Notes under the pieces: model-generated
Seen by the model: the letters and a program-made list of their open reading frames with translations, nothing else
The model's database searches: none
What the model was told of the DNA's origin: nothing
In this document: positions 1-56,485 of the stretch, piece after piece
How the letters are laid out: each line of letters begins with the position of its first letter
Position numbering within the stretch: the stretch's first letter is position 1
Translations under genes and position numbers: made by a program
NCBI RefSeq assembly: GCF_949628265.1
Contig: NC_088787.1
Span: forward strand, 796,501 to 860,500
Direction: 5' to 3'
Source: Cloeon dipterum
Lineage: Eukaryota; Arthropoda; Insecta; Ephemeroptera; Baetidae
Length of the DNA stretch: 64,000 bases

Positions 1-2895
1 GTCAAGTTCTTATTAGAGGAAAACATCAGTGGACTGCAACGTAACAAAGAAACTTTCGAAATCAATGAAGTAAAATCTCATTTGAATGCTTTACATTCTG
101 CTATTTGCAAAGGGCACAATGAAATCGCGAAAATTATAATAGAAAAGTGCCCAAATTTGAAAAACGCGGAATATGGTGATGATGAAAGTCTTCTACAATT
201 TTCGGCTAAAAATGGAAATTATAAAATGTGTCAATGGCTTATTGACGAAGAAGGGGTTGACGTGAACACCTTACGACGTAGTGGAGAACCACGAGATTGG
301 TCCAGGAATGACGAGGGCACAAGCGATGGGTCCTCAGATGTCGAGGACACAAGCGATGGGTCCTCGGATGACGAGGACGACAAAGTATGCATGGATTATT
401 TCTTAATGCTGCAGAAGATCGACATTAACATGACGGATAAAAGAGGAAAAACTGCTCTTCACTGCGCTGCGGAACGTGCATATCTTGAACGTGTCAAAGA
501 GTTGATCAATGCTGGCGCAAATATTCGAGCTGTAGACGAAAATGGATGGAATGCTTTTCATTTTGCTTGCAGCAATTGGGGTTACCTTGAAAAAGACGTG
601 ATTCGATTGTTGCACAGCACTGATAGTCAACTGGCCAAGGAGAAAACTGGAAGTGGTCAAACAGGGCTGCATATTCTAGTGGAATCCAGCTATTGGTTTG
701 TTGAGGATATGCGTTTTCTTGTCGAAGAGATTGGAGTTGACGTAAGAGCAAAGGACAACAATGGCTGCACTGCGTTGCATATTGCAGTTGACAAAGAAAA
801 GGATTCCGTTGACTATTTGATGGAAAAAGATATCGACCTGGAAGTAAAAAACGAAGAGGGGCGAACGTCCCTTCATTTAGCCGCTGGAAGGGGTGATTTA
901 GAGGCTCTGCCAACTTGGATACATCTGGGTGGAGACTTGGATGTGGTTGACGAAAAAGGGATGACTGCGTTGCATATTGCTGCTGAAAGCGGACATTTGC
1001 AATTTGTGAAAAAGTTTTTAGCCTGCGCGACCGAGGAAGTCCAAAATCAAGATATTGGCGAGGGTTGTGTTGGATCTAAACTGAAAGAAAGATTAAACAG
1101 ATGTGACGAATATGGAAGGACAGCACTCCACCTTGCTGCTGAGTCAGGAAATGTTGATTTGGTGGAAATGTTGCTTGAAAACAGTGCAGATTTAACTCAA
1201 ACGGATCTGGAAGGAAAGAATGCAATGCACTACGCTATCGAAAACGAAAGAATGTTACGATTCCTCAATGAGAAGAACGGAGATCTTTTGAAGCAGCGTA
1301 CAAAATATGGAGACACTACTCTACATCTGGCAATTGAATGGAAATCAAAAGTAACGGAAGAGGACGAACACATTGCTCTGTGGATTATAGGAAAAGTAGA
1401 CGACACCGTTTTAAACGCGAAAAATGCTTCTGGCGACACACCACTCTTACTGGCTTGCAGAAGAGAGAGGTGGAGGACCGCCGAATTGCTGCTGACCAGA
1501 AATGTTGAGATTAATGTATCGGACAGGTGGGGAAGAACTGCAATGCACCACGCCGCAGAAAAAGGAAACTTGTCGTTAGTGAAGCTTTTGCACGAGAAAG
1601 GTGCGGATTTGACTCTAACAGACAACGAGGGAATGAACGCATTGCACCACGCAATACGTCACTTGGAGCTAATTTCATTTCTTCACGAGAAAAACAATAA
1701 GTTGTTGGGACAGCGTTCTAAAGACGGAGACACAACCCTCCATTTGGCATTAAAAACGAGGCACATAATTGACACTGACACAATTCGTTGGCTCGTTGAG
1801 CAATTCAAAAATGACGTGAATGTAACAAACAGCGAGGGTGAGACATCGCTTCTGCTGGCTTGCAAGAAGAGTAAATGGATTATTGCTAAAAATTTGCTGG
1901 CAAAAGATGCAGATATTTATGTGAAGGATAAAAATGGAAGAACGGCTCTGCACTACGCCGTTCAATTGAATGCATTTGAAAGGCTAGAAGATTCACATGC
2001 TTTTGATTTGGTGCAAGAGTTGTGCAAAAGGGGCGCAGATTTGGCTTTGACGGACAACGAAGGGATGAACGCATTTCACCATGCGATGAAAAACTTTCAC
2101 ATGGCTCTAGTCATTCACAAATTAAATGGTAATTTGGTTAAACAACGTTTTAACAATGGAGACACCACTCTGCATCTGGCAATCAAATTAGACAGGGATG
2201 ATAACATTCTTATTTGGCTTGTGGAGCAATGCGAAAATGACTTGAATGTAAAAAACAACGATGGTGAGACACCACTCCTGCTGGCTTTCAAGAAGAGAAA
2301 GTTGATTATTGCTAAAATTTTGCTCGCAAAAACCGTTGATATAAACGCGAAAGATAAAAAAGGAAGAACGGCCCTGCACTACGCCGTTAAATTGTATAAA
2401 GACGATGATCTAGACGATTCAGCACCTGCTTTTGATTTGGTGCAAGAGTTGCTCAAAAGAGGCTTAGATTTGGCTTTGACAGACAACGACGGGAAGAATG
2501 CATTTCACCATGCGATACCAAATTATGACATGGCGTTATTCATTCATGAGTTGAAAGGTGATTTGGTTAAACAGCGTTTGAACAATGGAGATACCTCTCT
2601 GCATCTGGCAATCAAATTATTCAGAAACAGTCCCTGGTGGAATGACAATGAAATTCTTATGTGGCTTTTGGAGCAAGGCGACATTGATTTGAACGCGAGA
2701 AATGCTTTGAACGAAACCCCGTTGATTCTGGCTTGCAAGGAAGAGCTCTGGGATGAGAAATTTTTTGAAACACTTTTGTCCAAAAATGTAGATGTCAGTA
2801 TAAAAGACATTGAGGGGAAATCTGCTCGTGACTACATTGACGAATCTTTTCCAACTCATTTACTTGAAAGGTTTGATGAACTCGAAGAAGCTTGA
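1..2895 (+). CDS. NACHT-ankyrin paralogue A, C-terminal part only (5' end outside window)
   Basis: The frame is open from the first base, and the first 964 residues shown are almost entirely ankyrin repeats of about 33 residues with the G-x-TALHxAA core. The upstream exons, which in paralogue C encode caspase-like and NACHT domains, lie outside the window. Nucleotide identity to B and C is high through the whole repeat region, so this is the last exon of the same gene type. An acidic Ser/Asp/Glu insert near bases 313-384 holds two copies of an 11-residue unit; C has one and B none. The reading frame ends at TGA 2893-2895, where C has a TCA serine codon, so A lacks the basic Lys-Lys-Met-Arg tail of B and C. 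Ankyrin repeats normally bind proteins; ligand unknown. Identity as ankyrin protein is very secure; domain content upstream is inferred from paralogy. Confidence 0.9.
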   Translation, partial: VKFLLEENISGLQRNKETFEINEVKSHLNALHSAICKGHNEIAKIIIEKCPNLKNAEYGDDESLLQFSAKNGNYKMCQWLIDEEGVDVNTLRRSGEPRDWSRNDEGTSDGSSDVEDTSDGSSDDEDDKVCMDYFLMLQKIDINMTDKRGKTALHCAAERAYLERVKELINAGANIRAVDENGWNAFHFACSNWGYLEKDVIRLLHSTDSQLAKEKTGSGQTGLHILVESSYWFVEDMRFLVEEIGVDVRAKDNNGCTALHIAVDKEKDSVDYLMEKDIDLEVKNEEGRTSLHLAAGRGDLEALPTWIHLGGDLDVVDEKGMTALHIAAESGHLQFVKKFLACATEEVQNQDIGEGCVGSKLKERLNRCDEYGRTALHLAAESGNVDLVEMLLENSADLTQTDLEGKNAMHYAIENERMLRFLNEKNGDLLKQRTKYGDTTLHLAIEWKSKVTEEDEHIALWIIGKVDDTVLNAKNASGDTPLLLACRRERWRTAELLLTRNVEINVSDRWGRTAMHHAAEKGNLSLVKLLHEKGADLTLTDNEGMNALHHAIRHLELISFLHEKNNKLLGQRSKDGDTTLHLALKTRHIIDTDTIRWLVEQFKNDVNVTNSEGETSLLLACKKSKWIIAKNLLAKDADIYVKDKNGRTALHYAVQLNAFERLEDSHAFDLVQELCKRGADLALTDNEGMNAFHHAMKNFHMALVIHKLNGNLVKQRFNNGDTTLHLAIKLDRDDNILIWLVEQCENDLNVKNNDGETPLLLAFKKRKLIIAKILLAKTVDINAKDKKGRTALHYAVKLYKDDDLDDSAPAFDLVQELLKRGLDLALTDNDGKNAFHHAIPNYDMALFIHELKGDLVKQRLNNGDTSLHLAIKLFRNSPWWNDNEILMWLLEQGDIDLNARNALNETPLILACKEELWDEKFFETLLSKNVDVSIKDIEGKSARDYIDESFPTHLLERFDELEEA

Positions 2896-18952: not shown

Positions 18953-21900
18953 ATGCCTAAAGAACCAGCCAAATTAGGATACTTCGTATCGAAAGACAAA
19001 ACTATACAAAACGCAGACAAGTATGAAAATCGTGGAGATTATCCGACACATTTTATTGAAACCCCTGATTCTCAGTATTTGTGTGCTCGTCATCCACTAC
19101 GACTTTAAGGAAGCCAAGGCCCAGCTAGCAGAATTACCTCAAGTAACGCAGGTAGTACGAAATGTCACCCAAACATCACTGTCATGTCTGAATTTATCAC
19201 ATTGAAATAAAAAAAATTCAAATGTACGTTTATCCAACAGATGGCGCCACAACTTATACTATAATTTTGATTAAAAGGCACTTCCGCTACGGTTTCTGAC
19301 TCAATTGTGCATTCTTCTCTTAATATCATTTAATATGTCCCCTTTTACGTGCTGGAAAACAAAATCGGATAAGCAAATCGCCATAGAATCGTAAAAAACT
19401 GTTTTTTGAAATACAAAATCATTTGAGTCGTTTCTACGGCAGATAGCTGGACTGATTTTTTTACAGCATGCCAAAAAAATTATTCTAAATGCAGAATGCA
19501 CAGCAGCAGGATTAAGTCTGATATCACAGCGGCCATTCATCTAAACGAAAATTCATAGGATATAAAAAAAAATTTAAGTAATATAATTAAATCGGAAAAT
19601 CCCCACTACTTGTTTTTAAAACGTCGCATTTTCCTGTGACAGAAGCATTCCACTTCAATGTATAACAAACATCAGCGGAATATTCTATAACATAATATCA
19701 ACACAAAATATTGCTAGGATGAGATCGATGAGATGGGCGAGTGGAACCGGGAAGGTGATGCTAAGGACCTAGAGAATCTGAAAGAAACCTTCAGAGAGAA
19801 CCGTAACTGCAACTTCCACAGTATTTTGTCGCCGAAAAAAGAGGATTTGAAAGAACTTCTCTCCAAACAAGAAATACTATTGGAAAAATTTGGCTGTTCA
19901 GGTTAAACGAATTTATTTTCGATAAATTTTGTTCTATCGTATTGGTTTTACAGATGTTCCATCAGTGTTTGTGCTTTACATTCTTTCTCACGGTGACAGA
20001 GATGGAGAAATCTACACAGACCACTTCAAGGACAATGCTCGCCATATTGTGGAAAAAAAAGGTGCCAGCAGAGGGGACGACACCCTAAAGCTGAGAGAGT
20101 TGTTTGTTTCCTTCACAACCACGGAAATATTCGAGAATCTGAAAAAGCTGACCGGATTCGATGACTGTCTTAAATGTATAAACTTTGGTGTAAGTCCCTG
20201 TTTATGAATCAACAAGACTAGCATTAAAATATTTATTTTATAGCCATGTAGAGGGGAACTCATAGACGTAAAGATTACCGAAAACGACACAATAAATCCT
20301 TACAACAACGAAAATTCTTGCCGAATCACCTACAGCCCTCAGATGAGGAACACGGTTGTGTTCTTTTCAACGGTTGAAAGTAAGACTCTCGTCAAAAAAA
20401 TTATTTTTTTTAACTTGCAATAATTTTTGCAGCGACAAAATCCAAACGAAGCACGTCAAAAGGGTCAAATTTCGTCCGCCTTACTTGCGAGGTCTTTAAT
20501 TCGCTAAAAGAGGACGAGAATCTCATAAATGTCCTAACAACTATTCAAAATGAGAGCCACAAGGAAAATGACATAATTGATAACATATTCGCTGGTCAGA
20601 CTCCAGAAGTAAAAATGTTTTCCCAGGACAGAAGTTTTGTCATCTCAAAGTGAGTTTTCGTCGTATTTGACATGGCTTACCATGCTGACGTATGATCAAA
20701 TTATGTATTTCAGGAGTCCTTCAAATAACTCGACTTCCTCAACATCTGACGTCGTGGGCACCAAAATTAAAAAGAAACGTGAGTTTTACTCATGGAAATC
20801 AAGCTCAGGGGAAGACCTGCGACACCGCCTTGCGTTCCTATATTCCGCTGAGCAAAATAATCAGTTGAATGAATTAAAAAGAGTGTTGTCCGAAAACCTT
20901 CATTTTCAGACCAGCGAGCCACGTAATAAACAGCTCTATAGATATGCTGGAAATTATGTAATTCATATTTCAGCCTCGAAGCTTGACTCAGACTTTGGCT
21001 GCATTTTCTTGATTTTTCTTGGCATTGTGAGTGAAGACAAGAAAACGAACGAGGTTTGCCTGCAGGTGAACAGGAAAGAAAATGCAATATCTAAACAACT
21101 GCTAAGGTTAATCGGGCCAAAACACGACCAGTGGATTGGAAAACCTAAAATATTATTCATTGTCAATCAGGAAAAAAGCGCATCTGACGATGTAAGTGAT
21201 TTTGTCAAATTGAAACAAAAATATTAGGGCTGTGAATTTTAGACGGTTATTTTTGGGAAAATGTTCGACTAAGTTAGATGGACTAGGTCGATTTTTATAA
21301 TTTATACGGTTTTAGATGAATTTCTTTATTATTGTCTCAATAATTAATTTAATTTTCGTAAATTATGGTGGAATTTGATCTGTAACCCCACATGTTATGC
21401 ATGTATGATTCTATTGCAAAAGACACATGGAGTCGTGCGTTAAATTTTTTTACCACTAAAATTCTTAATAATACGCACGCAGAAAAAATTTCAAATCTAT
21501 CGTTTTAAACAATCTCAAAATTGTACGATTCATGCTCATTTGATGGTACCGCTTCCCGCCATGATTTGGAGCTCACAATCAGACAAAAGTAGTCAATCGT
21601 CTAAAATTCAGAGCCCTCATATATTAAAGTAATTCTCACCGTATTTCTTCTAGATCGGACTAAAAGAAACCAAGGATAAAATAACAGTACCAACAAACCA
21701 CAGTGGTTGGTTGGTCCTAGTTTTGCACAACAAAGGTATTTTTTATGTTCTCCAAATTTGAAAGGGTTTAAAACATTTGTCTCTATTTAGACGAACTTCA
21801 AAAGCTGATCGAAATCTTCAAAGGGCAAGAGCTGAAGAGGGAAAAAAGTCTGCAAGAACTGCTTGAAAGTCTGCTCATTTCCGAATCAAGCGAAAACAGG

Positions 21901-24900
21901 GATTTTCTAAACTCGACGCTTCAGTATCTCCTCAATTTTCCCGACCCTTTTGTTGAACTCACCTTTTCACTGACAATGCCTAATAAAACTCGAAAAAATG
22001 ACGTCAGCTTCGGCTGCTTGGTGAAGGAATCAGCATCAAAAAAACAAATTTGGCTCTTGAGTTCAGTCGCAGGGACAGGAAAGACGACAATCCTCAGGGA
22101 AATGGCCTTTCAACTTGGGAAACTAAATCCAGAATTACAAATTTTACACGTTTCACTGCCGAGAGTTTCGTTTAGCTCTCTAAAGTGGAACGTGACTGAA
22201 ACAGAATTTCTCGTGAAAGCCACTCACAATTCGCAAGAGGAAATCAAAAAAACAATAGAAAACAAGCAATGTGTTGTGATACTTGATGGGTTTGATGAAA
22301 TTACCCGTCCTGATAACCAAAAAAAAAACACTGAAAGTGATCAAAACTCTAGAAGAGAAGCAAGTATCCGTTTGGATCGGAACGAGACCAAACGCTGCAG
22401 AAGCAATAAAAAATATGATATCAAAAGCTGTTATAGTAGAGATTGATCCCTTGGATGAAGAACAGCAAATCGAGTTGTTTCAACTGGAGACGGGCAAGAG
22501 TCAAGAAGATAGTGAATTATTCATCAAAAACTTCGCATCAAAGGACATCTTGGAAAATCCTTTGCACCTTTCTTTGGTTGCGAAGTACGGAGCCGAAGGA
22601 AACTTGTACCAAATTTACGACAAGGTAGTGCGACACAAAGTGGAAGACTCATTGAACAGGAAAGCAGTTGACAAGAAAAGATTCGAGTTTGGTGAAATAT
22701 TTGCAGATGGTTTGAAAGATCTCCAAAAGTTAGCAATTAACCACATCAGAGGAGTTGAACTTAATGATTACACGAAAGACGACCTAGAAAAAAACAATTA
22801 CTATGGCATTGCCTCGTTTCAAAACAACCATGTTATTTTCATTCACCAGACATTGGCCGAATTCCTTGCAGCCCAACATTTCCTACGTGAAATCGAGAAT
22901 AGTGGCGATTGCGACATCCAAACCAGCACTGAAGATATTGCAAATTTATTTTTAGGAGAATCGTTTTCGTGGTGCAGAACGTTTGTCGATCTGTTCTATT
23001 CCACAGTTTTGAATGACGCGGAAAAGATTGAATTGCACAAAGCATCCTATCTTCCAGTCATGAAGTTGAATCCAGATAGATTTTTGCAATTGATTGTTTC
23101 TGGTGGTTGTATCAATATCTTCAAAATGATTTATCAAAACATCACTTTCAGTAACAACCCAGAGGGAAATTGTATTACTGTTGCAAAGGATAGGACTCTT
23201 TTGGTCAAAGCAATCGAAGGAGCGGAAGAAATAGCAGTCATGCTACTCGACATAGACTTAATCAACAGTGATGATGAGTTGCTTATAATTTTACCTCCCC
23301 TGTTGAAGACAGTAGCTGAATCACACGCATGTCTCTTCTTTGAAAATCTGGAAACAAAATTTCCTAGATTGCCAGAGATGATCCACTCTCGAAGATCTAT
23401 AATAGAAGCTGGAGTGGTTGCCGCAAGTAATAATCACGACGAAATTCTTCATCTGCTGCTGCAAAATGGTGTCGACAAAGATTTTCAAAATGATGAAGGT
23501 AACGCCCTATATTGGGCTATTATCGATGGATATATAAAATGCGTGGAAGTTTTGCTTAAGCATGGCGCGAAATTAGCCATATCTGATGATGGTGACAGTT
23601 CGGACCCATTGACTCTGGCTGTAGAAGTAAATAACCTAGACCTGGTTAAATTCTTATTGGAGGAAGATATCAGTGCACTGCAGTGCAACAAAAAAACTCT
23701 CGAAATCAATGTAGTTAAATCATGCTTGAATTCTGCTATTCGTCATGGGCACAAAGAAGTGGCGAAATTATTAATAGAAAAGTGCCCAAGTTTTAAAAAC
23801 GCGAAATATGGTGATGATGAAAGTCTTCTACAATTTTCGGCTAAAAATAGTAATTTAGAAATGTGTCAATGGCTTGTTGACGAAGAAGGGGAAGACGTGA
23901 ACACTTTGCGACCAAGTGGAGAACCAAGAGATTGGTCCCGAAAAGACAAATTATGCATGGACCATTACTTAATTCTGCAGAATGTGACGGACGAAAGAGG
24001 AAAAACTGCTCTTCACTGCGCTGCGGAACATGGATATCTTGAACGTGTCCAGGAGTTGATCAATTCTGGCGCAAATGTTCGAGCTGTAGACAAAAATGGA
24101 TGGAATGCATTGCACTTTGCTTGCAAAAGTAACAGTGAAGAAAAAGAGGACGTGATTCGATTGTTGCACAGCACTGATAGTCAGCTGTCCATGGAGAAAA
24201 CCAAAAGTGGCAAAACAGGGCTGCATATTCATCTTCTGAAATCCAGCCATTGGTTGGATTGGCAAAAAGTGCGTTTTCTTGTCGAAGAGATTGGAGTTGA
24301 CGTTAAAGCAAAGGACAACAATGGCTGCACTGCGTTGCGTATTGCATTTGACAAAGGACGTCATTTCTTGGACTATTTGATGGAAAAAGATATCGACCTG
24401 GAAGTAAAAACCAAACAGGGGCGAACGTGCCTGCATTTTGCCGCTGAAAGGGGTGATTTAGAGGCTCTGCAAACTTGGATAGAACTGGGTGGAGACTTCA
24501 ATGTGGTTGATGAAAAAGGGATGACTGCGTTGCATATTGCTGCTGAACGCGGACATTTGCAATTTGTGAAAAAGATTTTAGACTGCGCGACCGAGGAAGT
24601 CCAAAATCAAGATCTTGGCGAGGGTTGTGTTGGATCTAAACTGAAAGAGAGATTAAGCAGATGTGACAGTAAAGGAAGGACAGCACTGCACCTTGCTGCT
24701 GAGTCAGGAAATGTTGATTTGGTGAAAATATTGCTTGAAAATGCCGCAGATTTAACTCTAACGGACCTGGAAGGAAAGAATGCAATCCACTTCGCTATCA
24801 GAAATGAAAGAATGTTACGATTCCTCAATGAGAAGAACGGAGATCTTGTAAAGCAGTGTACAAAATATGGAGACACAACTCTACATCTGGCATTGGATTT

Positions 24901-26467
24901 TCATTTCAATAAAACGGAAGATGACGAACAAATTGCTCTGTGGATTATAGGACAAGTAGACGACACTGTTTTAAACGCGAAAAATGCTTCTGGCAAAACA
25001 CCACTCTTACTGGCTTGCAATTACGAGTGGTGGATGGTCGCCAAATTGCTGCTGACCAGAAATGTTGAGGTCAATGTCTCGAACTGGTGTGGAAAAACTG
25101 CAATGCACTACGCCGCAGCAGAAGGAAACTTGGATTTAGTGAAGCTTTTGCTTGAGAAAGGTGCGGATTTGACTCTAACAAACGACGAAGGAATGAACGC
25201 ATTGCACCACGCAATAAATAATATGGAGGTATTTTTATTTCTTCAAGAGAAAAACAATGCTTTGTTGAAACAGCGTTTGAAAAACGGAAATACAATCCTT
25301 CATAGGGCAGTCATGGAATTATCCGATGGAACTAAAGTAATTCCTTTGATTCTTGAACAAAGCGAAAATGACTTGAATGCAACAAACAGCGAGGGTGAGA
25401 CACCGCTTCTGCTGGCTTGCAAGAGGAGAAAATGGATTATTGCTAAAATTTTGCTAGCAAAAACCATTGATATAGATACGAAAGATAAATATGGAAGAAC
25501 GGCCTTGCACTACGCAGTTAACTGGTGGAGTAACTCTGATATAAAAGAATTACATGCTTTTTATCTTGTGGAAGAGTTGCTAGGGAGAGGCGCAGATTTG
25601 GCTTTGACCGACAACGACGGGAAGAACGCATTTCACCATGCGATTAAAAACTTTCATATGGCCTTATTCATTCATGAGTTGAATGGTGATTTGGTTAAAC
25701 AGCGTTTGAACAATGGAGATACCTCTCTGCAACTGGCAATCAATTTACACGGATATGACATCAATGATAACATTCTTATTTGGCATATTGAGCAATACTT
25801 GAATGTAACAAACAGCAAGGGTACGACACCGCTTATATTGGCTTGCAAGAATGGAATGTGGATTATTGCCAAAATTTTGGTGGCTAAAAGCGCTGATATA
25901 AACGCGAAAGATAAAAAAGGAAGATCAGCCCTGCACTACGCCGTTAATTTGGATGGAATCCATCGACTCGAAGATTTATCTGCTTTTGATTTGGTGCAAG
26001 AGTTATGCAAAAGAGGCGCAGATTTGGCTCAGACAGACAACGAAGGGATGAACGCATTTCACCATGCGATGAAAAATTATGACATGGCGTTATTCATTCA
26101 CGAGTTGAATGGTGACTTGGTCAAACAGCGTTTGAACAATGGAGACACCACTCTGCATCTGGCAATTAAATTGAACGAAGACAACTGGAATGACAAGTTT
26201 GTTATATGGCTTGTTGAGCAAGGCGTCGTTGATTTGAACGCGACAAATGCTTTGAACGAAACCCCATTAATCCTGGCTTGCAAAAATTGGAACGAGAATA
26301 GGAACATTGTTGATTTATTTATATCTAAAAATGTGGATGTCTTAGTAAAAGACAATGAGGGGAAACGTGCTCTTGACTACATTAACAAATTATGTCAAAC
26401 TCATTTACGTGGAAGTTTTGTTGATATCGAAGACGCGTCACCCAGCAAAAAAATGCGAATGAGTTAA
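18953..26467 (+). CDS. Caspase-pseudocaspase-NACHT-ankyrin paralogue B, frameshifted in NACHT
   Basis: Exons by splice sites and homology to C: 18953-19020, 19076-19142, 19718-19901, 19954-20189, 20244-20379, 20433-20649, 20714-20922, 20974-21191, 21654-21735, 21791-26467. Domain order equals C. First caspase-like domain: ILSHG with the general-base His, GPCRGE with the nucleophile Cys, p10-like GSNF and GQTPE motifs. Second: GKPKILF core but SHG and Cys lost. Walker A is SVAGTGKTT and Walker B VVILDGFDE. Immediately after Walker B a run of ten A (22,319-22,328) has one base more than the frame needs: frame 1 stops at 22,446, while the C-like frame is open to 26,467. This could be a homopolymer sequencing error, a real null allele or frameshifting. 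The second caspase exon is split by a 575-nt sequence absent from C; that join is uncertain. If the extra base is an error the product is about 2,030 residues. Confidence 0.8.
21226..21617. mobile_element. MITE in intron of paralogue B
   Basis: Terminal inverted repeats AGGGCTGTGAATTTTAGACG and its near-complement close about 390 bp inside the intron at 21,192-21,653. The same intron of C is only 110 nt. The interior shares a GATTC-TACTCATTTGATAG-like stretch with the 1.7-kb element at 16,137-17,851, so the two are probably related hAT-like families. No clean target duplication was seen. Confidence 0.65.
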
Positions 26468-39423: not shown

Positions 39424-42400
39424 ATGCCTAAAGGGCCAGCCAAATTGGGATATTTCGTGTCGAAAGACCAAACTATACAAAACGCAGACAAGTATGAACA
39501 TCGTGGAAATTAACCGACATAATTAATTACCAACCCTAATTGTCAGTGTTTGCGTGCTCGTTGTTCACTACAACTTTGAAAAAACCAAGAACGAAACCTG
39601 GATTCGGATAGGAGATGATCAGGACGTAAATAATCTGAAACGGACATTCGGAGAGAACCGTAACTGCAACTTCCACGATGTGTTATCGCCGGAAAAAGAG
39701 GAATTGCTTGAACTTCTCTCCGATCAAGAAAAACTGTTGCAATTATTTGGCAGTTCAGGTAAAACTAGTAACTTTTCGATAAATTATGTTACTTCATATT
39801 GACTTTGCAGATGTTCCATCAGTGTTTGTGCTTTACATTCTTTCTCACGGCTTCAGAGATGGAAAAATCTTCACAGACCACTTCAAGGACGATGTTCCCG
39901 CGAGCGCAGAAGAGCGTGCCAGAAGTACGGACCCGAAAAAGTTGTTTGTTTCCTTCACAACAACCGAGATATTCGAGTCTCTGAAAAAGCTGACTAATTT
40001 CGAGGAATGTCTCAAATTTATAAACTTTGGTGTAAGTCTATGCTAATATAAACAAGAATTGTATTACACTAATTAATTTGTAGCCATGTAGAGGAGAACT
40101 GGATGACGTATTATTTTCTGAAATAGACGAAGAAATCCCTTACAACAACAAAAATTCCTGCCGAATCACCTACAGCCCTCTGATGAGAAACACGGTTGTG
40201 TTCTTCTCAACAGTTGAAAGTGAGATTATTGACATTATAAATTTTATTCTTTGTCGTTTGCAAAAATATATTCAGCGACCAGGGCCAAAAGAAACCAGTC
40301 AGGATCAACTTTCGCCTCTCTTACGTGCCAGGTCTTTAATTTCCTTGAGAAGGACGAGAGTTTCATAAATGTCCTCACAACTATTCAAAATGAGAGTCAC
40401 AAAAATGTTGACTTCAAGAATTCTGTTGGACAGACTCCAGAAGTGAAGATGTTTTCTCAGGACAGAAGTTTTGTCATCTCAAAGTGAGTTTTTTATAAAT
40501 TATTTTATAGTTTTCCTCACATAGGCTACAGGCAAACAGCTTTTAATGGCGACAAAATGTATGGTAAAATTATTTATTTTAGAAGTCCTTCAAATTGCTC
40601 GGCTTTCTCGACATCTGACGGAATTGGCATCAGGAAAAAAAAGGAACTCGAGTTTTACTCTTGGAAATCAAACAAAAAGGAAAACTTGCGACGCCGCGTT
40701 GCGATTCTTTTTTCCAAAGAGCAAAACGATCAGTTAAAAGAAATTAAAAAAGTGCTGTCCCTAAACCTAGATTTTGAGACCAGCGAAAGGTTGCTGAGAG
40801 GAAAGCCGTGGATGTCCATAAACGAAGGTTTTGCGACTTATTTATGTTAATATGATGTAATTTGTGCAATTCATATTTCAGCCTCGTGGAGTGATTCCAA
40901 CATAGGCTGCATTTTCCTGCTTTTCTTTGGCATTTTGAGTGAAGACAAGAACACGAATGAGGTTTGCGTGCAGGTGGACGGTCAAGAAACTGCGGTATCT
41001 GAAATACTGCGCGAGTTTATCGGGCCAAAAAACGAGCAGTGGATTGGAAAACCGAAAATATTATTCCTTGTGAATCAGGAAACGAGCTCATCTGACTACG
41101 TAAGTGACTAATATTTAGTTAAACTTTCGAAATATTTCCAAAATAAATAGAGAAAATGAAAAAGAGTCTTATCAAAGTAAGAAACTGACAGTATCTTTCT
41201 CCTATAAAGCTCGGATCAACGCAGCCTAAGATGAAAATATCAGCAACAAACCACAGTGGATGGTTAGTCCTAGTTTTGCACAGTAAAGGTTAGTTTTTAA
41301 CTTCCTCAAATTTGTGAATTAGTAAAAAATTCATTGATATAGATAAAATTAAAAAGCTGATCGAAATCTTCAAGGGACAAGAGCTGAAAAAGGAGAAAAG
41401 TCTTCAAGAACTGCTCGCAACTCTTCTCATCTCCGAATCAAAGGAAAATAAGGATTTACTTAACTCGACGCTCCAGTATCCTCTCAATTTTCCAGAATGG
41501 CCAAAGTCTTTTGTTAAACTTAACTTTTCGGTAACAAAGCTTAAAACTCTAGAAAAGCGCATCAGCTTTGACAGTCTTGTGAAGGAATCAGCAGGAAAAA
41601 ATCAAATTTGGCTCTTGAGTTCAGTCGCAGGAACAGGAAAGACAACTATCCTCAGGGAAATGGCTTTTCAACTCGGGAAACTAAATCCTGAAATACAAAT
41701 TTTACGCGTTTTTCTCCCGAGAGTTTCGTTTAGCTCTCTAATGCGAAACATGACTGATATTGAATTTCTCCAAAAAATCACGCTCATTTCACACGAAGAA
41801 ATCATAAGAAGTATAAAAAACAAGAAATGTGTTGTGATTCTTGATGGGTTCGATGAAATCCCACGACCTGAAAACCGAGAAAAAATACTAAAAGTAATCA
41901 AAGCTCTAGAAAAGAAGCAGATATCCGTATGGGTTGGAACGAGACCTCACGCAGCAGAAGCAATCCAAAAGCGGATATCAAATGCCGTTTTAGTACAGAT
42001 TGAACCCTTGAATAAAAAGCAGCAAATCGAGTTGTTTCAGCTGGAGACGGGCAAGAGTCGAGAAGAATGTAAATCATTCATCGAGAACTTTGCGTCAAAG
42101 GATATCTTGGAAAATCCTTTGCACCTTTCTTTGGTTGCCAAGTACGGGGCCAAAGGAAACTTGTACCAGATCTACGACCAGGTTGTGCGACACAAAGTGG
42201 AAATCCATCTTCAAGACAGGGAAGGATATGACAAAAACAACTTTTCCAAGTTTCAAGAGCAATTAGACTATGCCTTGGAAAGTCTTCAACAGTTAGCAAG
42301 TTGCCACATCAGAGGAGTTGCACTTCCTGATTACACGAAAGACGACCTAGAAAAAAACAATTACTATGGCATTGCCTCGTTTCAAGACAACAAGGTTATT

Positions 42401-45400
42401 TTCATTCATCAGACTTTTGCCGAATTTCTCGCAGCCCAATATTTTTTATGTAAAATAGATGATTTCCTCATTGACACTGCAAAATTATTTTTCGGGCCAT
42501 CATTTTCGTGGTGCAGAAAGTTTGTCGATTTATTCTATTCCACATACGAGGAAAAGATTGAAGAGCACAAAGCATCAATTCTTAGAGTCATGAAGTTGGA
42601 TCCAGATATTTTTTTGGGATTGATTGCTTCCGATGGCTGCATAAATATTTTCAAAATGATTTTTCAAAGTATCACCTTCAGTAGCAACCGAGAGGGTAAT
42701 TGTATTACTGTTGCAAAGGACAAGACTCTTTTGTTCAAAGCAATCGAAGGAGCGGAAGAAATTGCAATCATGCTGCTCGACATGGGCTTGATCGAAAGTG
42801 ATGAAGAGTTGCTTATAATTTTACCATACCTGTTGAATTCAGTAGCTGAGTCAAACGCATGTCTCTTCTTTGAAAAAATAAAAGCAAAATTTCCTAAAAT
42901 GACAGAGATGATCCACTCTAGAAGATCTATAATAGAAGCTGGAGTGTTAGCAGCAAAAAAGAGTAACGGCGAAATTCTTCATCTACTGCTGCAAAGTGGT
43001 GTCGACAAAGATTTTCAAGGTGATGAAGAAGGAAACGCCCTAAATTGTGCTATTTGGAATGGAGATATAAAATGTGTGGAAGTTTTGCTTAAACATGGCG
43101 CAAAATTGACAGTATATGAAAATGGTGAAAGTTGGGAACTTATGGTGCATGCTGTAGAAACAAATAACCTAGACTTGGTCAAATTCTTATTGGAGGAAAA
43201 TATCAGTGGACTGCAACGCAACAATGAAACTTTAAAAATCAATGAAATGATATCAGAAATTGATGCTTTTAAAGTTGCTATTCAAGTAGGGAACAAAAAA
43301 ATCGCGAAATTTTTAATAGAAAAGTACCCAAGTTTGAAAAACACGAAATATGGTGAAGATGAAAGTGTTCTACAATTTTCGGCTACAAATAGTAATTTAG
43401 AAATGTGTCAATGGCTTGTTGACGAAGAAGGGGTTGACGTGAACACCTTACGACGTAGTGGAGAACCACGAGATTGGTCCAGGAATGACGAGGGCACAAG
43501 CGATGGGTCCTCGGATGACGAGGACGACAAAGTATGCATGGATTATTTCTTAATGCTGCAGAAGATCGACATTAACATGACGGATAAAAGAGGAAAAACT
43601 GCTCTTCACTGCGCTGCGGAACATGCATATCTTGAACGTGTCAAAGAGTTGATCCATTCTGGCGCAAATGTTCGAGCTGTAGACGAAAATGGATGGAATG
43701 CTTTTCATTTTGCTTGCAGCAGTCGGCGTTACCTTAAAGAAGGCGTGATTCGATTGTGGCACAGCACTGATAGTCAGCTTGCCAAGGAGAAATCCAACAG
43801 TGGTCAAACAGGGCTGCATATTTTAATGGAATCCAGCAAATATTGCTCGGATAATGAAGCGCGTTTTCTGGTCGAAGAGATTGGAGTCGACGCAAGAGCA
43901 AAGGACAATAATGGCTGCACTGCGTTACGTATAGCAGTTAACAAAGGAGTTGAAAAATGCGTTGACTATTTGATGACAAAAGATATCGACCTGGAAGTAA
44001 AAAACAAACGGGGGCGAACGTGCCTGCATTTTGCCGCTGGAAGGGGTGATTTAGAGGATCTGCAAACTTGGATAGAACTGGGTGGAGACTTGAATGTGGT
44101 TGACGAAAAAGGGATGACTGCGTTGCATTTAGCTTCAGAAAAAGGACATTTGCAGTTTGTGGAAAAGCTTTTAGCCTGCGCTGCCGAGGAAGCTTATAAT
44201 CCAGATATTGGTGAGGGTTGTGTTGGATCTAAACTGAAAAAGAACGAGATATTAAACAGATGTGACAATGGAGGAAGAACAGCTCTGCATTTTGCTGCTA
44301 AATCAGGAAATGTTGATTTGGTGAAATGGTTGATTGAAAACAACGCAGATTTAACTCAAACGGACCCGGAAGGAAAGAATGCAATCCACTTCGCTATAAG
44401 AAACGAAAGAATGTTACGATTCCTCAATGAGAAGAACAGAGATCTTGTGAAGCAGCGTACAAAATATGGAGACACAACTCTACATCTGGCAATTAAAAGG
44501 AAATCAAAAGTAACGGAAGAGGACGAACAAATTTCTGTGTGGATTATTGGACAAGTAGACGACACCGTTTTAAACGCGAAAAATTATTATCGCCAAACAC
44601 CACTCTTACTGGCTTGCGAAGAAGAGTGGTGGAAGGTCGCCGAACTGCTGCTGACCAGAAATGTTGAGGTCAATGTCTCGGACAGAAGTGGAAAAACTGT
44701 AATACACTACGCCGCAGAAAAAGGAAACTTGTCTTTAGTGAAGCTTTTGCTTGAGAAAGGTGCGGATTTGACTCTAAGAGACAACAAGGGAAAGAACGCG
44801 TTGCACCACGCAATAGATCACTTGGAGGTAATTTCATTTCTTCACGAGAAAAACAATGAGTTGTTGGGACAGCGTCTTAAAGACGGAGACACAACCCTCC
44901 ATTTGGCATTAAAAACGTGGGACATTGACACTGACACAATTCGTTGGCTCGTTGAGCATTGCGAAAATGACTTGAATGTAACAAACAGCGAGGGTGATAC
45001 ACCGCTTATGTTGGCTTGCAAGAGGAGAGAATGGATTATTGCTAAAATTTTGCTAGCAAAAACCATTGATATAGACACGAAAGATGAAAATGGAAGAACG
45101 GCCTTTCACTACGCAGTTAACTGGTGGAGTAATTCTGATATAAAAGAATTACATGCTTTTTATCTGGTGCAAGAGTTGTGCAAAAGAGGCGCAGATTTGG
45201 CTTTGACAGACAACGACGGGATGAACGCATTTCACCATGCTATACCAAACTTTCACATGGCGTTATTCATTCATAATTTGAATGGTGATTTGGTTAAACA
45301 GCGTTTGAACAATGGAGACACATCTCTACATCTGGCAATCAAATTAGAACAAGACATCAGGGACATTATTTTTCCTTGGCTTGTGGAGCAATGCGAAAAT

Positions 45401-46057
45401 GACTTGAATGTAACAAACAGCGAGGGCGATACACCGCTTCTGCTGGCTTTCAAGAAGAGAAAGTTGATTATTGCTAAATTTTTGCTGGCAAAAACCGTTG
45501 ATATAGACACGAAAGATAAAAATGGAAGAACAGCTCTGCACTATGCCATCGCTACTCATTGTTGGAGTGGAAATTCAGATGCTCTTGATTTGGTGCAAGA
45601 GTTGTGCAAAAGAGGTGCAGATTTGGCTTCGACAGACAACGACGGGATGAACGCATTTCACCATGCGATGGAAAACTTTAACATGGCTATATTCATTCAT
45701 GAGATGAATGGTGATTTGGTTAAACAGCGTTTGAACAATGGAGATACCTCTCTGCATCTGGCAATCAAATTATGCAGCCCAAATAACATTCTTATTTGGC
45801 TTGTGGAGCAAGGCGACATTGATTTGAACGCGACAAATGCTTTGAACGAAACCCCATTAATCCTGGCTTGCAAATATTGGAACGAGAATAGGAACTTTGT
45901 TGATTTACTTATGTCTAAAAATGTGGATGTCTTAGTAAAAGACAATCAGGGGAAGTGTGCTCTTCACTACTTTAACAAATTTTGTCCAACTCATTTACGT
46001 GGAAGCTATGTTGATATCGAAGAAGCGTCACCCAGCAAAAAAATGCGAATGAGTTAA
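39424..46057 (+). CDS. Caspase-pseudocaspase-NACHT-ankyrin protein, paralogue C (intact)
   Basis: Nine exons join in frame: 39424-39491, 39547-39758, 39811-40031, 40084-40219, 40276-40483, 40583-40827, 40882-41099, 41210-41288, 41343-46057, giving 2,033 residues. Residues about 24-275 are a caspase-like domain: ILSHG with His106, GPCRGE with Cys169, and a p10-like part starting GSTF at 222. Residues about 300-530 form a second caspase-like domain (WIGKPKILF at about 417-425) with His and Cys positions replaced. NACHT follows: Walker A SVAGTGKTT (Lys562), Walker B VVILDGFDE (about 626-634), GTRP at about 661, FIHQTFAEFLAAQ at about 816. From about 970 to the end are ankyrin repeats, four of them in 415-bp higher-order blocks. 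The C-terminus is basic, KKMRMS. Inferred role: intracellular nucleotide-gated sensor whose own protease domain is the output. Domain identities rest on motifs and exon order, not on a search. Confidence 0.88.
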
Positions 46058-47400: not shown

Positions 47401-47575
47401 GCAAGAACTGATAGCCCTACTCAAGTCACTTTAGAATTATAATTTCTCGCGTTAACAACAGGCAAGTTTCGAGCTCCGCAGACTTATCTTCGCAGTTTTG
47501 GTAAGTGGTATGAAACAATATTTCGCTTAGCATATTTCCTCACTTTTGTGAACAGCTGTAAAAGAGGTCAGAAGC

Positions 47576-49288
47576 ATGTCTCCGTTTTTGTGCGCCATTT
47601 TCTTGCTCGGCCTTTCGTCGCTGGCCACTGCCGCCAACTTCACCTTAGTCTACGAGTGGCCCGATGGATTGGACTACGAGTGGCCGTCGGGGGAAAGCAG
47701 GACGCAAGCCTTAAAAGATGGAACTTTTGATCCAAAGGCGGGTGTTAAACCTCTTATGGCAGTGTACGGAACGAGGCTCTTCCTCAGTCTGTCTCCATAT
47801 AATCACAATTATAAGGTGACTCTCGTGTCTCTACCGACGAACAGGACGTCCTTCGCACCTCCGAAGCTCACTCCGTTTCCTTCGTGGGACATGCATCTTC
47901 ATGTAAGTAACAAAAGTGTATGCTATTTGTTCTAAATACATTTTAATGGGAAGGCATTTTTAATGTTATCAAGGATTTCAGCTTTGCTAAAAGGAAATGT
48001 TTGTTTACGTCGATATTGCAAACAATTCTTTTATTTGCAGGGAAATAAATACTGCAACAAAATTAAAGAAGCAAAATGGACTGGAAGTGGATTCCGCCGG
48101 AAGGTTGTGGGTGTTGGACAGAGGCAACAACTTTTGCAAATCAAAAATATGGATCATCGATTTGAACAAGAACGATCACACCGAGATAATTCATCAGTTT
48201 TCTTTTCACGACTGGATGCACGACTTGGTGCTTGACGAAATGCCAAATAATGGAACGTTCGCCTACATCTCGCGGTGGGAAGAACAAAATATTGTCGTGT
48301 TTAGTTTGGAAAGAAACGAATCTTGGATTGTGAAAACGCCAGATGTCAAGGTTTTTTCCATCGCCCTTTCCCCCAAGGATCAGGAACCGAGACAGCTCTA
48401 CCTTGGCAGCTACCACTCCAATGAACTGTATTCAATTCCCGTTGTCGCTCTCCGCAGTCGAGTTCAAAGTGCAAATCCGAAACTAATCGGAAGATGGACT
48501 GCAGAGCAACCCTATAGAATGCTAATAGACAACCACGGGACCATGTATACCGCATTTTTGTGGGCACACCAAATACTTTCTTGGGATACTTCCCAGCCAT
48601 TTCAGGAAAAGCATTTTCGTGAGGTAGGTCATCAATTTAAAATATCATTTGAGTTCGTTCTAATTTTCCTTTGGAATTTTCTAACGAGTATTTGCAGATC
48701 CTCGTTAAACATCGTTGCCAACTTAACAATCTTTCGTTTAAGTGAATATTTAAAACTTTTCCTAGCTCACGCGCAGTAAAAATATTCAACACCTCTTCCT
48801 AAAATCCTATAAATTTCTTCTTATGAATTCTATATGATCGAGATGGTGATTTGCTTGGTTTCAGGTCGCAGGACTGTATACTAATATACTATTTACATTT
48901 GCCTTGGACCAAAATGGAACTCTTTGGATGACGGAGATTGATGAAGAAATAAGGCCTAGATATACGCTAAGGCTTTTGCAAGGTAAGATTCCTATATTTA
49001 ATATTTTTCAATAGCAGGGAGGGGAAATAAACTGAACTTTTAATCAGCCCTATTATATTTACTTGAACTATATATTTATAATTTGCTAAATTTTGTTGAT
49101 TTCACTTTGATTAATATCTTTTGATGTTAAAATAAAAATTATCACGTTGTTTTATTCTTGTTTCAGTTACGCCTACCATTCCAACCACCACTACCAAGGT
49201 GAAGACTGAAAAACCGCACCTATATTGGCCTTTCAAATTCATTCTTATCTACACCATCGTGATTAACTTGATCCTGCGGGGTATATGA
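47576..49288 (+). pseudogene. Yellow/MRJP-family gene 1, frameshifted
   Basis: Exons 47576-47902, 48041-48623, 48865-48982, 49167-49288 match the other family members. The first encodes a signal peptide (MSPFLCAIFLLGLSSLATA), then VYEWPDGLDYEWPS and FPSWDMH. The second has GLEVDSAGRLWVLDRG, HDLVLDE, LYLGSYHSNELYSIP and DNHGTMYTAF, all characteristic of MRJP beta-propeller proteins. Exon 2 is 583 nt against 582 in genes 2 and 3, and the frame breaks near 48,078, so the encoded product ends early unless the extra base is an error. The last exon lacks most of the stalk, and an insertion of about 20 bp in the membrane segment shifts the tail into another frame. Two independent lesions favour a pseudogene. 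Confidence 0.75.
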
Positions 49289-50381
49289 TCGTTTGATCAT
49301 TCTGAGACAGAAGAAGGTCGATTCCCAATTCCCTTTCGCAAAACACCTAAAAGAGCCATCAAATGACCTTTTTCTGTGACAACCACGATGACGTCTATTC
49401 GAGGTCCCGTTCTTCTGATCTAAAAGCAGCCGAAAAGTCCCAGAGTGCGACCGGTGGTGAGGAAAGTGAAAGTGATATCCGGGAAACCGAGGGGTTTTGA
49501 ACAATTTGGACAAACACCTCTTGATCTAAATCCAATATTTTAAAAACATTCGATTATTTTTAAAAATGTTTCATTTTTATCTGAAACAAATAGTGTTTTG
49601 CCCTACTATTTTTCTTTTACAACTTGCCATTTAAAAAAAAATAGGGATAAAAAGCAGTTGTTGTTTTGTTCTGCAGTAATTATTCACAGAAAGCGATACA
49701 AATATTAATCAAAAGCAGACATGAGTCTTTTTTCAGAAAAACAAATTATTTTAAGGCAGTTCAATTTTCGTTTAAAAATTAATCTTGAGAATGAATGGTT
49801 TTTCAATAAAATCAAGCTCCTATTGTGCAATAATTAAAAAAAAACAATTAACTGAATTTTTATTAAACCTTGTTCTTCCCACAGTATTATGATTGAAAAG
49901 AAACTTCTATTGGCTCACGCATTGCTCTTTGGAATGTTATTTGTTTTCTATCGGGCGACAATTTTTTATATATGCATGGGCTGAATTGAATTTTGCAGGA
50001 AAAAGATCAGATCAACGCTTTATAAAATTAATTCCAGCAATTCCGTTTAATTGCAAGTTCAAATCTAGTTCACATCAGGACGCTCTAGAGTGTGAACCAA
50101 TTTAGATTGCGCGTGCCTAGCAACTTGCCGATCACTAGAGCTAAGCAGGTTGTGTTTTTTTTTATATTTTAGGCTTCAACCTGCGTTGAAATTCGGGATC
50201 TCTTAGTGGGTCTTTAGAAATTGGATGATTTTGTCTGTCCAAACCGAGCAGAGGGTGTAGCTTGTAAGGAAGTTTTATTTTTTCTTTGTACATATTTAGC
50301 ACAGTTAAATTATTGATCACTCAAATTCAACATGCTCTTTGGAATATAAATATTATCCAATCGGTGACTGTTATTTGTCAC
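49289..50381. other. Spacer with a relic promoter and family 1 repeat
   Basis: AATAAA at 49,805-49,810 may end gene 1 transcripts. At about 49,916-49,975 a degraded copy of the yellow-gene upstream element occurs (TTGCTCTTTGGAATG, TTTCTATCGGGCGAC, TTTTTATATA) with no gene after it. Family 1 repeat lies at 50,090-50,215. Confidence 0.45.
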
Positions 50382-50388
50382 TATATAA
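50382..50388 (+). promoter_or_regulatory. TATA box of yellow-family gene 2
   Basis: TATATAA in CACTATATAAGCAAGAACTGA, with the conserved TGCTCTTTGGAATATAAATA element about 45 nt upstream. GTTAACATCAGGCAAGT, shared with gene 1, follows in the leader. Confidence 0.7.
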
Positions 50389-50602
50389 GCAAGAACTGAG
50401 AGCCCTGCTCGAGTCACTCGAGAGTTATTCTTCCAAGCGTTAACATCAGGCAAGTGTGGACTAAGCAGACATATCTTCACAATTTTGGCAGAGAAAGTGT
50501 TGAGAAACATTTAGCTTGTTTTGTTACTTCTCTAAGAATTAATTTTGAAGAAAAATCCATTTCAATTCTGTGTGTAAACAGTTGGAAAAGCCCGCCGGAA
50601 GC

Positions 50603-52662
50603 ATGTCTCCATTTGTGTGCGCCATTTTCTTGCTCCATATTTCATTGCTGTCCACCGCCGCCAACCTCACCGTAGTCTACGAGTGGCCCGGTGGATTAGA
50701 ATACGAGTGGCCAACATTTCAACCAGTGGATATTGAACCTCGATACATGGCTGTCTACGGTTCAAGGATCTTTCTCAGTCTTGAGTATAAGATTAATCGC
50801 GTTCCGCCGGCTACTCTGGTGTCTTTGCCAACGAGCAGCGAGTCTTCTGCGTCCCCGAAAATAACTCCATTTCCTTCGTGGGACATGCATGTAAGTAGAA
50901 AAAGCTATTGCCATATTTTTTATAATTTAATTCGGAAAGTTGTTCCGAATCTGCGAAAAGAAGAATCTTGGAAATTCGTGATAATTCGGCAGGAATTTCG
51001 AAAGCGTTGTGAATCACTTTTCTTGGCCAAATTTTTCAGTACAGGAATCATAACTTCATTATTTAAATTTTTCCTGTGTGAAATCTTCAGGATATTTTTA
51101 AAAAGTTTGACACTGTTTACGACAAATTTTGTCCGGAAGAAAACATAAAAAACAGTTCCGAATAAATTTTCTTTTTCAGGGAATAGGAAACTGCAACAAG
51201 ATTGAATATGCATCAGGGCTGGATGTGGACACGGTTGGCAGGCTCTGGGTTCTGGACAGCGGTAGCTCCCAATGCAAATCCAAAATATGGATTATCGATT
51301 TGATGAACAACAATGAAATCAATCACATTCCTTCGTTTTCTTCTGACGGCTCGATGCATGATTTGGTGCTGGACGAAACTGCCAACGAAACCTTTGCCTA
51401 CATCTCGCTGTGGGGTGAAGAATACATTGTCGTGTATTGTTTGGAAAGAAATGAATTTTGGATTGTGCTAACGCCAGATGTCAAGGTTTTTTCCATTGCC
51501 CTGTCCCCTAAAAAGGATCAGGAACCGAGACAGCTCTACCTTGGCAAACGAAACTCCACTGAACTGTATTCAATTTCCGTCGCCGTAATCCACAAAGTAA
51601 CTGGAAAAGCAGAACCGGAACTAGTCGGAAAATGGACTGCAAAGCAATCGTATAGAATGCTGATGGACAACCACGGGACCTTGTATTCCGCTTTTGAATT
51701 CTATTACTCCATTCTTTCTTGGAACGCATCCCAGCCATTCAAGGAGCAGCTTTTTCATGAGGTAGGTCATGAATTTAAAATTGGATTTGAGGACAGAATA
51801 ATTAATTTGGTTCAAATTTTCTTTGGACTTTTGTAACGAGTATTTGAAGATTTGTGGAGGCAAATATTTATGCTGACAAATTTAACTATCGTTCGCCAAT
51901 CTAAGATTTTTCATAGCTCTCACGCAATTAAAACTTTCAACACGTAACAAATTTAACCCTTTTCCTAATATTCAATATTATTAAATTTCTTATAAATTCT
52001 TAATCATCGAAATGGGCTCTATCCTTAGCTTCAGGAGTCAGGACGGCATTTATCTATATGTCCGTTTACTTTTGCCTTGGACGAAAATGGAACTTTTTGG
52101 ATGACAGAAAGAAATCCGAGATACAGGCTTTTCAAGGCTACACTCGAAGAAAAATCCTCCGAGGCCTTGCCAGGTAAGATTCCTTGGGTGTAATTTTTCA
52201 TCAATCCACCGCAGAAACTGTTATAAAACGAACCTTATATTTTCTTTCCATACTTTTGTAAAATAATTATTGATATCAATTAGATTTAATGACGGCTAGA
52301 ATAAGAAACATCATGTTTGATTTATTCTTTTTTCAGCTACGCCCGCCATTACAACCACCAGCGGTACTACTACCACACCTCAAAAGACCAAACCAACGCC
52401 TCCTACCCCTACAGAACGATCTTGTGTGTGCAGTCCATCCACAACAACATCCTCTACGCTTGCTGAGGTGCAGGAGAACAGCGTCCTGAAAGAAAAATTG
52501 CAATATCATCAGCTGTTTAGCATCAGTCTTATCTGCTCCAATGTATTTGCCGCAATCCTATTGGGTTATATCATCCTGAGAAAAAGGAGGAACAATTTTT
52601 TTTCACCAAACACCATTGAGGCCCACCAAATGACCTTTTTCCGTAACAATCATGCCGAATAG
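50603..52662 (+). CDS. Yellow/MRJP-family protein 2, membrane-anchored
   Basis: Exons 50603-50890, 51180-51761, 52035-52173, 52337-52662 join in phases 0, 0 and 1 to give 444 residues with no defects. Residues 1-20 are a signal peptide. The MRJP domain spans about 21-335, with VYEWPGGLEYEWP, GRLWVLDSGSSQCKSKIW, LDETANETFAYIS, LSPKKDQEPRQLYLG, DNHGTLYSAF and FALDENGTFWM. The last exon encodes a Thr/Pro-rich stalk, a transmembrane helix (about FSISLICSNVFAAILLGYII) and a tail beginning RKRRNNFF. Yellow proteins are normally secreted, so the anchor is unusual. The start is set by the leader peptide and the conserved GGAAGC-ATG context of gene 1. A polyadenylation signal lies at 52,842-52,847. 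Ligand or substrate is unknown. Confidence 0.9.
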
Positions 52663-55316: not shown

Positions 55317-55524
55317 GCTTTTATTAACTGTTAACAAAAGGGTAACGTTAGACACGATTCAACCTACCCTGACAAGCTGAAGAGTTTAGCCTAATCAGTG
55401 AAACATTGTTTCTTACCACTTTAACTGCCAAAACTGTGAAGATAAGTCTGTCAAGTTCAACAACGCGAAAAAGAACAACTAACTCTTAACTGACTCGAGT
55501 AGAGGGCGCTATATCAGTTCTTGC

Positions 55525-55534
55525 TTATGTATAG
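55525..55534 (-). promoter_or_regulatory. TATA-like box of yellow-family gene 3
   Basis: On the minus strand CACTATACATAAGCAAGAACTGA aligns with the TATA region of genes 1 and 2, one step diverged. The upstream element TTTGCAATGCAAATATTTTC with TATCGGG is conserved just before it. Confidence 0.6.
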
Positions 55535-55599
55535 TGCCCGATAGAAAATATTTGCATTGCAAAGAGAATTTTAATACTTGTATGTACAATGATTAATTA

Positions 55600-56480: not shown

Positions 56481-56485
56481 AATTT

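Follow-up and report, generated by a model that had tools for sequence, protein, structure and literature searches.

In vertebrate NLR inflammasomes, a NACHT switch and a repeat sensor are coupled to a caspase output. The caspase of these systems, caspase-1, is a separate protein that is recruited through CARD or PYD, and their sensor is built of LRRs. Here, we analyzed a 64,000-nucleotide stretch of the genome of the mayfly Cloeon dipterum (contig NC_088787.1, positions 796,501 to 860,500 of the forward strand; this whole stretch is hereafter the window and positions are counted from its first nucleotide). In contrast to the vertebrate arrangement, gene C of this window is predicted to carry its protease inside the receptor and to have an ankyrin sensor. 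Insects are generally held to lack NLR inflammasomes, and a 2024 survey, in its accessible text, describes the NLRs of arthropods as without an N-terminal effector domain, leaves out Arthropoda for this reason, and expects no inflammasome among them (PMC11508797). We suggest that gene C is probably a member of a large insect family of STAND/NLR-type intracellular receptors, which carry in cis both an effector caspase and, as its partner, a cFLIP-like pseudo-caspase.

The 'direct connection' genes of amphioxus, which encode TNFR-caspase and LRR-caspase proteins, likewise place recognition and a caspase in one chain and bypass adaptors, but neither a NACHT-caspase chain nor a pseudo-caspase is named in the accessible part of that report (PMC2575513). 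Bacterial STAND systems couple peptidase effectors, including caspases, to NTPases of the NACHT clade or to other STAND NTPases. These systems are prokaryotic, however, and the accessible text on them does not name a chain of caspase, pseudo-caspase, NACHT, and ankyrin (PMC8195603). Fungal NLRs have N-terminal effector domains that include a subtilisin-type (S8) peptidase (PMC4986451), and a combination of NACHT and ankyrin was reported in 2012 from Neoptera (PMC3499355). Gene C shares NACHT and ankyrin with the proteins of Neoptera and of fungi, but a caspase/pseudo-caspase part is not reported in the accessible portions of either source (PMC3499355; PMC4986451). The first-pass annotation of this DNA had stated that NLRs are absent from well-studied insects. 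For Drosophila, two papers agree with this (PMC2575513; PMC11508797), but NACHT-ankyrin proteins are already published for winged insects (PMC3499355). Literature searches by fusion name, by domain terms, and for arthropods and insects found no report of a caspase-NACHT-ankyrin fusion among the papers listed, in a collection with few subscription papers. Caspase-8 and cFLIP also combine an active caspase with a dead homolog, but as two proteins with DED prodomains, whereas gene C has the two in tandem in one predicted chain and has no match to DED.

The model of gene C has nine exons and eight GT-AG introns of 52–110 nt, with intron phases 2, 1, 0, 1, 2, 1, 0, and 1. The joined exons are in frame over 6,102 nt, equal to 2,033 codons, and the only stop is the terminal one. 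A purpose-written spliced aligner, which aligns protein to DNA, recovered identical introns. The features of gene C are as follows.

39424..46057, forward strand: gene C, caspase, pseudo-caspase, NACHT, and ankyrin, 2,033 amino acids (gene model and spliced aligner)
39424..39491, forward strand: exon 1, start ATG, residues 1–22 (gene model; intron 1 conserved in 42 of 42 covering loci)
39547..40483, forward strand: predicted catalytic caspase domain, exons 2–5 at 39547–39758, 39811–40031, 40084–40219, and 40276–40483 (Peptidase_C14, E = 1.2e-9; 20-member profile)
39846..39848, forward strand: codon of predicted catalytic His106, LSHG motif (His in 44 of 44 and in 5 of 5 further loci)
40087..40089, forward strand: codon of predicted catalytic Cys169, FGPCRG motif (Cys-Arg-Gly in 44 of 44 and in 5 of 5 further loci)
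40583..41288, forward strand: predicted pseudo-caspase domain, exons 6–8 at 40583–40827, 40882–41099, and 41210–41288, with His and Cys replaced (19-member profile against PDB)
41343..46057, forward strand: exon 9, with NACHT, helical region, ankyrin array, and stop (gene model and Pfam)
41624..42037, forward strand: NACHT NTPase domain (PF05729, E = 8.6e-9, profile positions 8–160 of 167)
42950..46000, forward strand: ankyrin repeats, limits approximate and set by eye (Ank_2, E = 1.7e-120, 13 stretches)
44307..45772, forward strand: ankyrin super-repeats of ~426 nt, start-to-start distance 417–432 nt

The Pfam match of residues 24–270 to Peptidase_C14 reaches 38.7 bits (cutoff of 21.4) and spans profile positions 3–224 of 233, and in exon 9 the match to NACHT (E = 8.6e-9) is followed by matches to ankyrin repeats (Ank_2, E = 1.7e-120). 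The first-pass annotation had read a caspase, a second caspase-like domain, a NACHT, and ankyrin repeats without a break in the exons of gene C. The 2,033-codon model and the matches to Pfam and PDB profiles confirm that these four parts are present in one predicted in-frame gene. Among Pfam matches of gene C and eight further scanned frames, none is to an LRR family. Since an NLR in the strict sense requires LRRs, gene C is not one. Pfam also yielded no match to CARD, PYD, or DED in gene C, which therefore has no recruitment domain (CARD or PYD) of the kind found in inflammasome receptors of the vertebrate type. An exon-wise search of the genome gave one CARD match, at C3:11478003–11478242, away from the window. 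With PADLOC, the ankyrin part of gene C was matched, the P-loop had one weak match, and the caspase domain had none.

Conservation of introns bears on whether these parts belong to a single chain. We read 44 N-terminal loci of the genome (L017–L060, including gene C and its paralogs A and B) with the spliced aligner seeded with gene C, so that the readings are biased toward the structure of C. For introns 1 through 8, respectively, the number of loci that conserve both place (within four residues) and phase is 42 of 42, 43 of 44, 44 of 44, 44 of 44, 40 of 44, 36 of 43, 38 of 42, and 40 of 41. Paralog L043 lacks intron 8 and has its intron 7 in frame, and a single open frame covers model residues 373, in the pseudo-caspase, to 710, beyond the NACHT. 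Each of introns 2–8 is bridged by an open frame in some locus, intron 5 barely (L046 and L049), and in L051 and L054 open frames also cross intron 8, the junction of pseudo-caspase and NACHT. Bridging frames are weaker evidence because an intron of 55 nt may be without a stop by chance.

An alternative is that a caspase gene of exons 1–5 or 1–8 and an adjacent NACHT-ankyrin gene were duplicated together without ever sharing an mRNA. If intron 5 were retained, the protein would stop just after the caspase (frame 40233–40487, with the stop at the splice donor), as this alternative would have it. We nevertheless consider two genes very improbable because 40 of 41 loci agree on the place and phase of intron 8, a single open frame crosses it in L043 (and, possibly by chance, in L051 and L054), and order and strand are constant at a spacing of 1.07–4.0 kb in 89 of 101 loci. 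A separate caspase gene ending before position 41,210, named in the first-pass annotation as the finding that would speak against one gene, is likewise unlikely given the conserved places and phases of introns and the open frame of L043. Caspase, pseudo-caspase, NACHT, and ankyrin repeats thus appear, from the exon structure of the family, to be encoded as one long protein.

The first caspase domain (domain 1) looks catalytic because His106 and Cys169-Arg-Gly are invariant in all 44 loci. Ser precedes the His in every locus except L042, and the His and Cys are also retained in five of five additional loci, for 49 of 49 overall. The first Arg of the substrate pocket is present in 43 of 44 loci and replaced by Lys in one. 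The set for domain 1 comprised 43 of 44 loci (L033, with a stop in its caspase part, was omitted) and 20 of these were used in alignment A2. Searched against PDB, the 20-member profile aligned with almost the whole of caspase-3 (E = 3.1e-15), the catalytic His and Cys of the two coinciding, and identity to gene C is as low as 32% among the aligned members. When gene C was the seed, the aligner gave L009–L011, which are ordinary caspase loci of this genome, scores of 41–90, barely above shuffled DNA. By these scores, the family is far diverged from the ordinary caspases of the genome, and descent from them is left unsupported.

In gene C, the second domain (domain 2) is not matched to caspases by Pfam. 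We assembled domain 2 from 41 of 44 loci (L021, L022, and L024 were too short) and used 19 in alignment A1. This 19-member profile, compared with all PDB chains, gave 135 matches at E up to 1, with a best E of 9e-8. Caspases make up all 60 of the best-listed of these 135 matches, and the alignment to them extends to the GKPKxxF strand immediately before the catalytic Cys. None of the loci that can be aligned at residues 379–381 (42 of 44) has a His there, and none of those that can be aligned at residue 429 (43 of 44) has a Cys, which is replaced by Gln, Val, Met, or Arg. Motifs SHG, CRG, CQG, and CGG are absent from domain 2 throughout the 44 loci. We regard domain 2 as an anciently diverged, catalytically dead caspase on the strength of these profiles. 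The second caspase-like domain proposed in the first pass therefore stands in terms of homology, with the refinement that both catalytic residues are lost wherever the loci can be aligned. Recent duplication as the source of domains 1 and 2 was considered and rejected, as their profiles did not match each other in hhalign.

Gene C is one of many such genes. The genome is 190 Mb in ten contigs, five of which are 33–43 Mb, and has 101 NACHT matches at E ≤ 0.001, of which 83 are within open frames of at least 700 amino acids. Exon 3 of the caspase has 103 matches in the genome, some being two halves of one exon, and these were pooled with 36 Pfam caspase matches. In 89 of the 101 cases, a caspase match is located 1.07–4.0 kb upstream of the NACHT on the same strand; on the opposite strand, no NACHT match has one upstream. 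Pairing of caspase and NACHT is therefore beyond chance. We rejected the possibility that the other 12 NACHT loci lack a caspase because all five upstream regions examined encode one, and in three of them all eight intron phases agree with those of gene C. Aligner scores of these five loci were 295–1090, compared with 39–62 for five shuffled sequences and 44–58 for five opposite strands. A caspase domain is thus present in all 49 N-terminal loci read (44 and 5; lowest score of 295), and the family consists of at least 94 loci of 101 (89 and 5, with six not examined). The NACHT at C1:9155645 has no caspase match within 1.5 kb on either side.

All eight further loci that were scanned have a STAND NTPase match and ankyrin repeats in one frame, with NACHT above the Pfam cutoff in seven. 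In L062, NACHT scores 24.9 bits against a cutoff of 26.7 and NB-ARC is above its own cutoff. NB-ARC matches in the genome search are located solely inside two of the NACHT frames. No scored NACHT is downstream of 27 of the 36 Pfam caspase matches. Six exon 3 matches are also without a scored NACHT within 6 kb downstream (C4:29991909, C4:29997213, C1:20967493, C5:9168872, C5:21743300, and C1:41631184). It is possible that these are caspase-only relatives or that their NACHTs were missed.

Copies are concentrated near chromosome ends. Within 2 Mb of an end, a zone that holds 11% of the sequence of the five large contigs, there are 55 of the 101 NACHT matches, and 75 have another NACHT within 100 kb. 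Most are in two end clusters, at 0.8–4.7 Mb of C2 and 29–36.1 Mb of C4 (46 matches on C4 and 34 on C2, including a few that are elsewhere on the contig). A tree of 44 catalytic domains largely sorts the copies by chromosome, with 8 changes of chromosome label versus 19.5 when labels are shuffled. A single clade (support 97/80) contains 21 of 22 C2 copies, and five long branches are uncertainly placed. The grouping of copies from the same chromosome suggests local expansion.

A foreign origin of the family was also considered. Genomes of Wolbachia phages are reported to have eukaryote-like genes, and NACHT and ankyrin are named in the accessible text of that report (PMC5062602), which could be taken to suggest that the family came by contamination or by recent transfer, whether from a symbiont, a virus, or some other organism. 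Such an origin is close to negligible in probability. Gene C has eight short spliceosomal introns, matches are on all five large contigs, and no relatives of domain 1 were confirmed among 34 pattern matches in GTDB genomes and 44 in viral contigs, although these are collections where relatives would hardly be expected.

Two paralogs share the window with gene C.

18953..26467, forward strand: paralog B, N-terminal exon structure of a similar kind to that of gene C, His and Cys kept, frame of the last exon broken at ~22,320
1..2895, forward strand: paralog A, represented by its ankyrin tail, with the NACHT and caspase exons preceding the window (G000:C2:794917 and 793103)

The basic tail PSKKMRMS closes gene C (46020–46057) and gene B (26430–26467) but not paralog A, and is possibly a nuclear localization signal.

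Selection was estimated from the ratio of nonsynonymous to synonymous substitution rates (dN/dS) over 16 pairs of paralogs, not all of which are independent. The ratio is 0.18–0.67 (median of 0.32) for the caspase domain, 0.13–0.50 (median of 0.31) for the pseudo-caspase, and 0.14–0.85 for the first 63 residues of the NACHT exon. Between C and B, the NACHT region gives 0.42 and residues 900–1100 give 0.69. For the ankyrin repeats, only two pairs were available, with ratios of 0.83 (C versus A) and 0.74 (C versus B). Both caspase-like domains are under purifying selection and the putative ankyrin sensor is under looser constraint. Super-repeats in the array are most alike in DNA at its 3' end. 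A tandem pair at 44,940–45,772 is 85% identical, aligned blocks of the last units are 88–91% identical, and units further up are 60–62% identical. The array looks as if it expands and shrinks through recombination, and its super-repeats recall the recombining repeats of fungal NLRs.

Several observations weigh against gene C as a receptor with a working caspase and a pseudo-caspase partner. The first-pass annotation had suggested structure prediction as a check, and AlphaFold failed on the NACHT exon alone (mean predicted local distance difference test score, pLDDT, of 39.8). The ratio of 0.85 in one pair is high for the start of the NACHT exon, and the ankyrin ratios are below 1 and hence do not show diversifying selection. 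Paralog B has its frame break near an A run in the NACHT exon (22280–22340), through pseudogenization, polymorphism, or sequencing error, and L033, alone among the 44 loci, has a stop codon inside its caspase part. As single sequences, only two of 19 members of domain 2 match Peptidase_C14, both weakly (best E of 0.073). Profiles of domains 1 and 2 did not match in hhalign any better than shuffled columns did, so the kinship of the two domains rests on the separate match of each to caspases. A genome search found no gasdermin, but it recovered no control either.

The substrate pocket of domain 1 belongs with these observations. In caspase-3, the S1 pocket for Asp is formed by Arg, Gln, and Arg. 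The residue two before the Cys, Gln in caspase-3, is Gly in 43 of 44 loci and Ala in one, and the p10 Arg position has Arg in 31 loci, Thr in 11, Gly in one, and Ser in one. With two positions of the pocket altered, cleavage after Asp is not assured, and substrate specificity may differ from that of classical caspases. The loss of Gln and of an obligatory p10 Arg would also fit a domain 1 that is kept structurally but is no working protease, serving as a scaffold or decoy. We judge this improbable because His and Cys-Arg-Gly are invariant in 44 of 44 loci though the domain falls to 32% identity, and because domain 2, to which that constraint apparently does not apply, retains neither catalytic residue. 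A receptor with a working caspase in cis is the reading that we continue with.

In the mechanism that we propose, the ankyrin array would be the sensor, and a ligand bound to the ankyrin surface would free the NACHT. The NACHT would act as an ATP-driven oligomerization switch and as an assembly platform on which chains oligomerize. Caspase and pseudo-caspase would then pair and become active, either within a chain or between neighbors in the oligomer. Caspases are activated by dimerization, and cFLIP shows that a dead homolog can act as a partner. The conserved tandem of an active and a dead caspase fits a cFLIP-like pair, and the pseudo-caspase would most likely be the dimer partner of domain 1, as cFLIP is for caspase-8. 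Once active, the caspase would cleave its substrates, which are probably executioner caspases or other proteins involved in death or defense. We infer the defense role, the oligomerization, the cFLIP-like pairing, the substrates, and, with them, an inflammasome-like function of gene C from domain content and comparison. In this respect, the interpretation of the first-pass annotation is supported in part: single-chain architecture and an insect-like genome are borne out, and function is still a proposal.

The presence of dozens of such genes in the genome suggests an all-in-one defense receptor. A stronger version, that the genome encodes about a hundred single-chain insect inflammasomes, in which a NACHT gates a pair of active and dead caspases, ankyrin sensors change fast, and genes cluster near chromosome ends, is one that we offer tentatively, as a reasonable possibility. 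Tandem copies and clusters near chromosome ends would fit selfish or allorecognition genes too, and the apoptosome is likewise built of a caspase and a STAND ATPase. Caspase-in-cis receptors could accordingly act in apoptosis, in the recognition of self and non-self, or in germline conflict instead of in antimicrobial defense. We argue that about a hundred copies and a faster-changing ankyrin part are more in keeping with a recognition repertoire than with a core apoptosis machine, and we consider a role outside defense rather unlikely, though worth keeping in view.

If gene C is a defense receptor as proposed, its union of sensor, switch, and protease in a single chain would demonstrate that the logic of an inflammasome can be assembled without adaptors. 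Gene C would provide a simple system for studying the activation of a caspase by a NACHT switch, and its tandem of caspase and pseudo-caspase would make the question posed by cFLIP directly testable within one polypeptide. The size of the repertoire suggests that intracellular receptors diversified in insects also. The family would then be an animal counterpart of the R-gene arsenals of plants, in a phylum for which the 2024 survey predicted no inflammasome.

The genome was described as insect-like in the first-pass annotation and exons of odorant receptors (ORs) agree with this. Matches to insect ORs (7tm_6) number five in the genome, with two of two scanned confirmed, and there are 20 matches to gustatory receptors (7tm_7) and one to odorant-binding proteins (OBPs). 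Published figures for C. dipterum are 49 OR and 191 OBP genes in 180 Mb (PMC7250882) and 2n = 10 (PMC6446309). The five ORs and one OBP found here are far fewer than the published numbers; the exon-wise mode of searching is a possible but not a certain cause. A springtail as the source was considered and is disfavored by the insect OR matches. A genome search for non-ribosomal peptide synthetases, a marker of springtails, gave no match. Directly downstream of gene C, at 47552–59038, is a cluster of major royal jelly/yellow protein genes on both strands (four of four frames scanned). The outermost 400 bases at one end each of four contigs (L064–L067) contain no arrays of the telomere repeat TTAGG. 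One AT-rich repeat is common to the ends of C2 and C4, and a different repeat is common to the C1 and C5 ends.

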